From: Pseudomonas sp. HOU2
Lineage (GTDB): Bacteria; Pseudomonadota; Gammaproteobacteria; Pseudomonadales; Pseudomonadaceae
Direction of reading: 5' to 3'
Assembly: GCF_040729435.1 (NCBI RefSeq)
Contig: NZ_CP160398.1
Location: forward strand, 1,488,001-1,552,000
DNA: 64,000 nt
The position numbers and the translations under genes are program-made. Positions 8,806 through 51,231 of this stretch are shown here, in pieces. Numbering within the stretch: the stretch's first letter is position 1; each line of letters starts with the position of its first letter. Below the pieces are notes generated by a model. That model was given only the letters and a program-made list of their open reading frames with translations, was not told the DNA's origin and did no database searches.

Positions 8806-8888
8806 GGCCCCATCGCTGGCAAGCCAGCTCCCACAGGTTTACCGGTGTACCCAATCACTGTGGGAGCTGGCTTGCCAGCGATGAGGCC
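8806..8888. repeat. REP pair, family B (TGTGGGAGCTGGCTTGCCAGCGATG)
   Basis: Inverted pair of the unit CATCGCTGGCAAGCCAGCTC and its complement, between ngg and the M42 peptidase gene. It could form a long hairpin in the transcript and tune downstream expression. Sister copies lie at 10169, 28829 and 35072. Confidence 0.9.
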
Positions 8889-28828: not shown

Positions 28829-28920
28829 CTGTGGGAGCTGGCTTGCCAGCGATAGCGGTGCATCTGTCACATCAATGCCGGATGTGCCGCCGTCATCGCT
28901 GGCAAGCCAGCTCCCACAGG
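28829..28920. repeat. REP pair, family B, inside the dgo operon
   Basis: Inverted family B units between dgoD and dgoT. In the transcript they would form a stable hairpin that could protect the dgoKAD part from 3' decay. Confidence 0.9.
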
Positions 28921-35071: not shown

Positions 35072-35168
35072 GGCCTTATCGCTGGCAAGCCAGCTCCCAC
35101 AGGGATTCCGGGGTACACAAATTTGCGTTTCACCTTGTAAACCTGTGGGAGCTGGCTTGCCAGCGAAA
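35072..35168. repeat. REP pair, family B
   Basis: Inverted family B units between the Rho_N-like gene and the convergent PfkB kinase gene. Confidence 0.88.
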
Positions 35169-45541: not shown

Positions 45542-45632
45542 ATGTGGGAGCGAGCTTGCTCGCGAAAGCGGAGTGTCAGTCGAAGGCGGTGTATCTGATT
45601 CGCCGCCTTCGCGAGCAAGCTCGCTCCCACAG
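45542..45632. repeat. REP pair, family D (TGTGGGAGCGAGCTTGCTCGCGAA)
   Basis: Intact inverted pair of family D units between the GntR and lactonase genes. It shows what the IS-interrupted copy at 46456 looked like before insertion. Confidence 0.9.
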
Positions 45633-46455: not shown

Positions 46456-46540
46456 ATGTGGGAGCGAGCTTGCTCGCGAAAGCGGTGTATCAATCAACCT
46501 AAGTATCGACTGACTTACCGTCTTCGCGAGCAGGCTCGCT
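46456..46540. repeat. REP pair, family D, interrupted by the IS110 element
   Basis: The left part of a family D pair, ending GCAGGCTCGCT at 46540. The missing end CTCCCACAG is found at 47706-47714, immediately after the insertion sequence. Confidence 0.88.
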
Positions 46541-46700
46541 TGTATGTTTAGACTTGAAGGGGTGGGCGGGACTACAGACTCGATTCTGACTCTGACCAGT
46601 ACAGACCGTGGGAGACTTCTCGTCCCGCCCCTTCTACCCAAAGCGCCAATAAGGAATTCATCGGTAAACCGACGACAGAGACAAGCCAGCGCAACGGTAG
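46541..46700 (+). ncRNA. putative IS110 bridge RNA
   Basis: Stem 1: GGGCGGGAC (46564-46572) pairs with GTCCCGCCC (46622-46630) around a large internal loop. The loop's right strand has GTGGGAG (46608-46614), complementary to CTCCCAC of the REP target; its left strand has CTCG (46579-46582), identical to the four target bases before the core. Stem 2: GCGC (46643-46646) pairs with GCGC (46689-46692). Its loop has GAAT (46654-46657), identical to the right-end bases before the core, and ACAAG (46681-46685), complementary to CTTGT at the left end. TCGGTAAACCGA caps it. This is the two-loop plan of the IS621 bridge RNA. Ends are approximate. Confidence 0.7.
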
Positions 46701-46740
46701 ACCCCAACAAGCTCTTAAACCCTAGCTCCGAGGATTCGTC

Positions 46741-47676
46741 ATGACAATCCTTACTTCGCAGACGGTTGTTGGTATCGATATCGCCAAGGCCGAAATCGTT
46801 GTCTATCGCGCCGACCTGGAAACCATTGAAGCGGTCAAGAATGATCGTGCCGCCCTCAAACGTTGGCTCAAAACTCTGCCCGCGCAAAGCGCTATCGCTG
46901 TCGAAGCCACCAATATCTACCATTTGGAGACTGTTGATCTGGCTCATGCGATGGGACATCAGGTCTATGTGGTGGATGCTTATCGAGTCAGCCACTATCG
47001 TCGCGGTGTCGGTCAGCGAGCCAAAAATGATCCCTGCGATGCACGCGTGCTCGCACGCTATCTGACGAATGAACAAAGCAAACTGCGGCTTTGGAACCCG
47101 CCTCCTAAAGCCTACACCGTACTGAAAAGCTTGCTGCACAGACGCGCGACGCTGATTCAGAACCATACGGGTCTGATGTTGAGCTGGGCCGATGAACCCT
47201 TGCTGAAGAAAGAACGTACGGCTCAGCAAAAGGCATTCGAGCGATCCGACAAGGTCATTCAAAACCTGCTGCGCAAAGTCAGCAAAGAGGCCGGTATTGA
47301 TGACAATATTGGCCGCTGCAAAGCAATCGAGGGCGTGGGAGAGTTGACTGCGACTGGGTTGGCAACGACCTATATGCGCGGTGACTTTGCCAACAGCGAC
47401 GCGTTCATCGCGTTTTTGGGTATGGATCTGACGGTGGACGATTCGGGGAAAAAGAACGGCCCGAGGTTCCTGAGCAAAAAAGGAGATCCGGAGATCCGTC
47501 GATTAGCCTACAACGCCGCAATGGCGGCGTGTCGCTCAACCAAGTGGAAGCCTTTTTACGAGTCTTACCTGGCCAGAGGCTTCTCGAAAACACAGGCATT
47601 GGTAGCTCTTGCTCGCAAGCTCTGCCGAGTGGCATTCACCCTGATGAAGAATCAGGGCGAATACCGATCAGTTTGA
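46741..47676 (+). CDS. IS110 family transposase (DEDD recombinase)
   Basis: A 311-aa recombinase with an N-terminal RuvC-like DEDD domain and a C-terminal Transposase_20 domain. Catalytic residues read as Asp13 (GIDIAK), Glu55 (VEATNIYH), Asp97 and Asp100 (KNDPCDARVL), with the second-domain Ser245 in FLSKKGDPEIRR; spacing agrees with IS621. A helix-hairpin-helix-like CKAIEGVGELTATGLA precedes it. GAGG lies 7 bases before the ATG. The frame is intact, so the element may be active. Confidence 0.95.
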   Translation: MTILTSQTVVGIDIAKAEIVVYRADLETIEAVKNDRAALKRWLKTLPAQSAIAVEATNIYHLETVDLAHAMGHQVYVVDAYRVSHYRRGVGQRAKNDPCDARVLARYLTNEQSKLRLWNPPPKAYTVLKSLLHRRATLIQNHTGLMLSWADEPLLKKERTAQQKAFERSDKVIQNLLRKVSKEAGIDDNIGRCKAIEGVGELTATGLATTYMRGDFANSDAFIAFLGMDLTVDDSGKKNGPRFLSKKGDPEIRRLAYNAAMAACRSTKWKPFYESYLARGFSKTQALVALARKLCRVAFTLMKNQGEYRSV

Positions 47677-47706
47677 GATTCTAGGGTTGCTGAGCAACAT
47701 AGAATC
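47677..47706 (+). other. right-end hairpin of the IS110 element
   Basis: GATTCTA-gg-GTTGC-tga-GCAAC-a-TAGAATC, starting at the base after the transposase stop and ending one base before the right CT core is complete. It lacks a T-tract, so it is more likely an end-recognition structure than a terminator. Confidence 0.65.
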
Positions 47707-47724
47707 TCCCACAGTGATTTGTGT

Positions 47725-50975: not shown

Positions 50976-51114
50976 ACCATATCTGTGTTTCTTGTTCATT
51001 TTGCGAACGCTTGGGGCTCAATGAGAACTCAACTGAAGCGCCCGTATTCCAAATTTGTTTAAAAACCCCGACCGGCTAACTGGACTGAGCGCCAGACTGA
51101 TCAATACTTGAACT

Positions 51115-51231
51115 GTCGGCCGGCATCTCCCCCAAGTGCCGCGCCGGTAAAGGTACCAAGGGACCGCGTGCCTTTGTTTTACTCCTAATGGTCTTAACCC
51201 GGATTCACCCCCCAGAACCCGGGTTTTTTTT
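51115..51231 (+). ncRNA. rgsA: small RNA RgsA (P16)
   Basis: An sRNA of about 117 nt is implied by an RpoS-type -10 (CAATACT, 51102-51108) and a strong terminator at 51196-51231. The position, between the TetR gene and tatD, is that of RgsA in P. aeruginosa and P. fluorescens, where an RpoS-dependent RNA of about 120 nt affects oxidative-stress resistance. The interior has C-rich single-stranded stretches (GGCATCTCCCCCAAG) and an AAGG/CCTT-type helix. There is no ORF. The identification rests on synteny and length, not on an alignment. Confidence 0.75.
51196..51231 (+). terminator. intrinsic terminator of rgsA
   Basis: AACCCGG (51196-51202) pairs with CCGGGTT (51219-51225), followed by an unbroken T run to 51231; plus-strand oriented, which neither flanking minus-strand gene can use. 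Confidence 0.88.

Follow-up and report, generated by a model that had tools for sequence, protein, structure and literature searches.

An IS110-group element of Pseudomonas with a predicted REP-directed bridge RNA and relatives whose guides match other REP classes

REP-inserting elements and the locus

Bridge RNAs are under development as programmable recombination tools. The bridge RNA described for IS621 has two loops, and covariation of guides with targets is reported over 5,511 pairs, some orthologues having longer right guides (Durrant et al. 2024, PMC11208160). Extended Data Fig. 10c of the same paper gives a predicted bridge RNA for ISPpu10, with target and donor guides (LTG, RTG, LDG and RDG). 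ISPpu9, ISPpu10 and ISPa11 are reported to insert in REPs (Tobes and Pareja 2006, PMC1525189), and natural redirection is described for one IS1111 pair, ISEc11/ISXne4 (PMC11187229). In the literature searched, the evidence on natural target change consists mainly of covariation across the family and of single pairs, and no study of guides that track REPs within Pseudomonas was found, subscription papers and preprints being outside the scope of the search.

The host genome (6.05 Mb, one contig) contains the window, which is the whole 64,000-nucleotide stretch of DNA analyzed here. As read directly from the sequence, an IS110-group insertion sequence occupies 46541-47705 and is flanked by two copies of CT. 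Its ends are CTTGT on the left (46539-46543, with the CT core at 46539-46540) and GAAT on the right (47702-47705). The element interrupts a REP: the left half, consisting of the left target AGGCTCG and the CT core, lies at 46532-46540 (+), and the right half, the CT core followed by the right target CCCAC, at 47706-47712 (+). An intact partner REP (GCAAGCTCGCTCCCAC), located by pattern search at 46458-46473 (-), adjoins the interrupted one in inverted orientation. The orthologous place was compared in the loci of 19 relatives, and seven alignments span the junction. In three of these (L229, L230 and L231), the REP is uninterrupted, as GCGAGCAGGCTCG-CTCCCAC containing one CT; the sequence is ..CCCG-CTCCCAC in L233 and L236 and ..CCCG-CCCCCAC in L234, and L235 is arranged differently. 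Because excision yields the REP seen in relatives, the ends of the element are fixed between the two CT copies.

The window holds nine exact REP matches, the one at 46458 among them, against 0.03 expected. Inverted, REPIN-like pairs of the CCAG and CTCG classes occur at 8819-8875, 28831-28917, 35085-35160 and 45544-45630, and Rfam places an RgsA small RNA at 51030-51222 (177 bits).

Profile searches identified the gene at 46741-47676 (+) as an IS110 transposase of 311 aa with a DEDD set (D13, E55, D97 and D100) and S235-G236. It matches Pfam PF01548 (DEDD_Tnp_IS110) and PF02371 (Transposase_20) above cut-off and NCBIfam NF033542, "IS110 family RNA-guided transposase," with 165.2 bits (threshold 140). 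Sequence matches in the PDB are the recombinases of ISCro4 and, remotely, IS621 (69.3 bits). All six residues are invariant in 85/85 distinct full-length relatives and are identical to their aligned counterparts in ISCro4; they probably correspond to D11, E60, D102, D105 and S241, named for IS621 in PMC11208158. The long left end (200 nt ahead of the ATG) and short right end (29 nt past the stop) are those of the IS110 group. By eye, the ends read ATA-GAAT-CT-TG-TAT, a short ATA/TAT subterminal repeat rather than a long IS1111-type one; such a repeat around the donor site is named as an IS110-group feature in a figure legend of Durrant et al. 2024 (PMC11208160).

The right end (47677-47705, +) is an inverted repeat, ATTCTA..GTTGC/GCAAC..TAGAAT, that ends in the left donor ATAGAAT. 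Relatives have counterparts of the repeat at 47680-47705, that of L024 being a 16-bp hairpin, ATTCTATG..CATAGAAT. Its sequence varies by lineage; among the right ends inspected (26 of 63 distinct ones), complementarity is retained in many and is not retained in the L027-L032/L036 group.

Left-end anatomy of the predicted bridge RNA

The predicted bridge RNA region covers 46539-46728 (+), the extent of a 189.3-bit match to a covariance model whose training set includes the element, and not the true RNA ends. Its target-binding loop is bounded by an outer stem with arms at 46564-46572 and 46622-46630 (+), seen in the minimum-energy fold and in 34/34 single folds. Within it lie the left target guide AGACTCG (46576-46582, +), with 6/7 letters as in the left target AGGCTCG, and the right target guide GTGGGAG (46608-46614, +), the complement of CTCCCAC; the two are separated by a hairpin (TCTGACT / AGTACAGA; 46585-46605, +) that has alignment support. 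The donor-binding loop (46643-46692, +) is closed in the folds by a GCGC/GCGC stem (46643-46646/46689-46692). It carries the left donor guide AAGGAAT (46651-46657, +), which shares 5/7 letters with the right end ATAGAAT, the last four among them, and the right donor guide ACAAG (46681-46685, +), the complement of CTTGT.

The initial annotation had assigned CTCG (46579-46582) and GTGGGAG to loop 1, opposite target letters CTCG (46535-46538) and CTCCCAC (47706-47712), and GAAT (46654-46657) and ACAAG to loop 2. Re-read against the sequence, all of these letters and coordinates are exact; our refinement is a left guide of seven letters instead of CTCG alone. In loop 1, the left guide repeats, and the right guide complements, the top strand of the target, core included, with the right guide pairing with both core bases and the left guide only partly. 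Loop 2 matches the element's own joined ends, and GAAT with [AG]CAAG recurs in 57/58 distinct left ends; these letters offer no co-variation, since the donor ends are constant by selection. The four motifs, in the same order and with roughly the same spacing, appeared in 0/20,000 dinucleotide shuffles of 46541-46740, and the target-loop pair alone in 34/20,000. Given that the motifs had been picked after the site was read, the other copies and relatives weigh more than this comparison.

Both outer stems are present in the minimum-energy fold (z -1.96; 6/200 shuffles fold as well). In the window copy, the interior of loop 1 folds otherwise; among representative left ends folded singly, 33/34 form the inner hairpin and only the window-type copy does not. 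The fold is conserved among homologues. The covariance model, built from 34 left ends, matches all 34, as it must with the same sources searched, and finds nine full copies and one truncated remnant in the host genome. In the alignment fitted to the structure, 90.2% of cells are paired, compared with 44-57% for slid structures. The covariation score is 0.153 versus 0.081 in shuffles, and stem cells altered on both sides number 39 versus 15.5. By the number of pairs with two-sided change (6 versus 4.2) or of additional pair types (14 versus 14.8), the alignment is not distinct from shuffles. The donor-loop stem gives no co-variation evidence because it is unvaried in 33-34/34 rows, and the counts for the outer target-loop helix are understated because the gapped alignment used (A3) shifts that stem out of register in the second clade. 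The covariance support that the initial annotation had called for is thus present, as a fold kept among homologous elements with some compensatory changes.

In an Rfam scan, no bridge-RNA family reached its gathering score, and with the limit relaxed to E 1 there were just three microRNA families, which also fell short of theirs. With TATGNT taken as the -10 element at the circle junction, the best -35-like hexamer matched 3/6 positions in 45/61 distinct junctions, four in 15 and five in 1. No convincing sigma-70 promoter was found at these 61 junctions, the match being weak and not conserved.

Guide and target in the host genome and across Pseudomonas

The host genome holds seven copies of the element (99-100% identical protein). 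Other copies had been expected at guide-matching sites, and in 7/7 the core is preceded by CTCG and the right end followed by CTCCCAC. Six copies sit in GCAGGCTCG, of which the genome has 35 intact sites, and one in GCAAGCTCG, with 141 TCG-class sites; all seven sites belong to the TCG class. Host REPs with the same right half comprise 178 of the TCG, 120 of the CCG and 517 of the CAG class. The broader expectation that CTCCCAC-bearing REPs would serve as targets in general did not hold, as the 517 CAG-class REPs with CTCCCAC contain 0/7 copies. A guide-blind element would mostly enter the CAG class, so this absence speaks for a left guide that restricts which CTCCCAC REPs serve as targets, as the host sequences indicate. 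A second insertion sequence of the clade is present in two copies (L008 and L009; transposase 52% identical). It has the same right guide and a different left guide, AAGCCAG, and both copies sit in GCAAGCCAG|CTCCCAC, a putative natural control in which another left guide matches another REP class.

A solo remnant (L224, ~1540-1640; genome ~5,723,982-5,724,110, -) runs from CT through the right guide GTGGGAG and then passes straight into an inverted REP also bearing GTGGGAG. The deletion endpoint inside the guide possibly arose by microhomology or through the recombinase.

We searched 398 genomes of the genus, the host included, and in at least 55 of them a relative reached E 1e-40; at most five candidates were scored per genome, and 100 regions from among the matches listed were added to the loci returned directly. 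The resulting 214 loci gave 218 transposase hits, 210 with both recognizable ends and 189 distinct insertions. The required ends were CTTGTATG and ATAGAAT, which fixed the donor letters by selection. Copies within one genome were counted as independent; an insertion was dropped as inherited in common only when both its flank and its left end were identical to those of another. The seven-base register was set after the first alignments had been seen. Three insertions were unusable for the agreement count (short flank or N), leaving 186.

Of these insertions, 95 have a left guide that agrees with the left target at 7/7 positions, 51 at 6/7 and 40 at ≤5/7. When collapsed to 47 lineages, 287/329 positions agree; over 5,000 shuffles, the average is 233 and the highest value 254. 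The signal peaks at -6, -3 and -2 (P 0.0005) and is less marked at -5, -4 and -1 (P 0.01-0.05). At -7, guide and target are alike in 43/47 lineages, with hardly any variation and no significant co-variation (P 0.08); at -8 and -9, there are 3/47 matches each and no signal. The match therefore spans seven bases, with co-variation at six of them. Among the 40 low matches, the guide is shifted by one base in 18 (L023, L025 and L147 groups), is the odd AGCCTAG in 5 (L024) and is CAGTTCG, at TCG/CCG REPs, in another 5 (L028 and L029); 12 are others. Core-facing guide letters are AT, CA, CT or AA, and both core bases are matched in the CT cases only.

In the L023, L025 and L147 groups, the guide is displaced one base relative to the following hairpin, yet 17/18 insertions are in GCTCG REPs; of later copies with a displaced guide, 1/2 are.

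Later covariance-model searches of the same genomes returned 39 regions, of which 38 were parsed, 2 had already been seen and 36 were new. These 36 copies, from the same genomes and with mostly the same guides as the first set, comprise 19 at 7/7, 12 at 6/7 and 5 lower (31/36 at 6-7); four of the five low-matching copies bear shifted or odd guides already known. A plasmid search gave no DNA match and only proteins of <60% identity; with no close plasmid relatives, it taught us nothing about non-REP insertions.

Agreement of this kind could be incidental if the transposase protein alone recognized the REP, for instance by binding the palindrome. Consistent with that, insertions occupy the same REP position, the right half CTCCCAC is nearly constant (176/186 insertions), and other insertion sequences have been proposed to target REPs by way of the protein (Tobes and Pareja 2006, PMC1525189). 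What protein recognition does not account for is that insertions track the guide beyond REP abundance within single genomes, and that the signal ends at -8. Of 100 insertions, 86 are in the guide's own REP class, compared with 61.1 expected if insertion were blind to the guide (Poisson-binomial P 2e-11). These 100 were drawn from the 189 after setting aside 51 without a genome handle, 12 in uncounted genomes, 5 in genomes with fewer than 20 such REPs, and 21 with guides outside the three classes. Own-class placement failed in genomes G139 (0/4, with sites ending in CCCC or CTCG), G100 (1/3) and G214 (1/4). Within the TCG class, base -6 alone follows the guide in 51/59 insertions versus at most 35.8 expected (P 2e-8), a conservative test because the background share of the G type, counted as everything not GCAAG, is an upper bound. 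In G125, 6/7 insertions are in a form that is 11% of its TCG REPs, and in the host genome, 6/7 are in a form making up at most 21%. As a counter-case, copies in G205 and G290 with the guide AGGCTCG (G at -6) lie 5/5 in A-type AAGCTCG REPs. Overall, guide-target agreement exceeds what host REP make-up allows. On the ground of guide-following beyond REP abundance within genomes, we reject recognition by the protein alone, which we consider very unlikely.

Probable retargeting in the clade and relation to known systems

On a tree of 49 transposases, made by a quick method and with 11/46 inner branches unresolved, a minimum of 15 changes is needed for guide class and of 16 for target class, guide class being the last three letters and a shifted guide its own state. 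Where independent pairs contrast TCG with all other guides, the target shifts in the direction of the guide in 5-6/7 and never against it (median p 0.06), which, with so few pairs, borders on significance. Transposases that are 90-92% identical have different guides and sit in different REPs, as in L167 (5/5) versus L033 (4/5) and L172 (1) versus L008 (2); although few copies represent each, this again argues against targeting by the protein alone. The pair L111/L108 is a counter-example that would fit it, with 99% identity, differing guides and a shared target type.

The right guide can differ as well. In L132 (genome G094), it is GTAGGAG, and the sites read CTCCTAC in 4/4 and, among later copies, 3/3, so that both guide halves changed together with the target. 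Of the 233 sites of the pattern CAAGYTCGCTCCYAC in G094, 70 of the 100 listed are of the TTCG/CTCCTAC type by hand count; because the REPs of this genome carry both changes, the right-half match is not independent evidence of choice. The right guide of the L118 group, GTGAGAG, is not matched by its four targets. Most guides differ from each other by few bases, which makes natural retargeting by guide substitution, as judged from these sequences, the simplest account.

One relative (L030 in G091, left end 2422-2551, -) has an open transposase frame and lacks the whole donor-binding loop; it is the one match in G091 among the matches listed.

Two further explanations leave out a functional guide. 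The left end could be merely a structured 5' untranslated regulator of the transposase, as in ISPpu9, for which a structured 244-nt 5'UTR and an antisense RNA are described (PMC8450116), and the left end here, ahead of the start codon, is likewise strongly paired. A regulator of this type fails to predict guide-target co-variation at loop positions, and the two roles are compatible rather than exclusive; that regulation is the sole role seems to us highly improbable. The notion that the guide letters are functionless REP pieces captured by recombination with flanking REPs, which the remnant L224 recalls by joining guide-region GTGGGAG to a neighboring REP, is rejected and has next to no likelihood, because the guide halves flank one conserved loop in opposite senses, whereas capture would presumably bring contiguous one-sense REP sequence, and because few bases separate the guides of different elements.

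Anatomy, ends, the empty site, guide-target co-variation, fold conservation and catalytic residues, each read from sequence, argue for an IS110-group element that encodes its own predicted bridge RNA in its left end, with a guide aiming at the REP; we put the probability at roughly 0.93. The initial annotation's IS621-like target-binding/donor-binding reading is supported, as we found neither a lack of covariance support nor copies at sites unrelated to the guide, the two results it had named against itself. RNA expression, the circle, pairing in the complex and the chemistry would all follow IS621 by analogy. The excised circle would join the right end, CT and the left end; the donor loop (LDG ..GAAT, RDG ACAAG) would pair with this junction; and the DEDD/Ser recombinase would exchange strands at CT, putting the element into the REP. 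Relatives, with left guides mostly a few bases apart, would be directed to different REP classes.

We also think it likely that this Pseudomonas clade radiated by tracking REP diversification, the recombinase being kept as the left guide drifts and each step opens a REP class. If so, two such elements in one genome would use a common repeat pool with no competition for sites, and the clade would offer natural, repeated, near single-base bridge-RNA retargeting with host REP make-up as the control. More than 200 insertions from one clade, among countable competing REP classes, amount to a natural specificity assay, pointing to a seven-base left guide, single-base (-6) discrimination, tolerated mismatches and one-position guide slips.

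Among described systems, ISPpu10 (IS110 family, Pseudomonas putida KT2440) resembles the element in having 7/7 copies in REPs (PMC1525189) and a predicted bridge RNA, a likeness at the level of published description. IS621 of Escherichia coli shares the left-end bridge RNA with two internal loops in the same order, the CT core, REP targets and the DEDD and Ser residues. Its right guide is described as 4 nt (G77-G80) compared with 7 nt here, and its left target guide as nine letters (A50-U58), core included, which equals our seven plus the core (PMC11208158). The E. coli REP queries printed for IS621 (PMC11208160) differ in sequence from the REPs of the element. ISPa11 and the IS1111 group (seekRNA, PMC11187229) are likewise RNA-guided, with a REP target in Pseudomonas aeruginosa, but their guide RNA is described as downstream of the gene with reversed guide order and with sub-terminal inverted repeats, whereas the RNA region of the element is upstream. 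ISEc11/ISXne4 parallel the clade in having related transposases (72% identical), different guides and matching targets (PMC11187229); they form a single IS1111 pair with a largely replaced target region, in contrast to the many small differences in this IS110 clade. The element thus appears ordinary in kind and informative as a natural experiment: its proposed mechanism is already known from these systems, to which it adds a natural retargeting series with a genome-background control.
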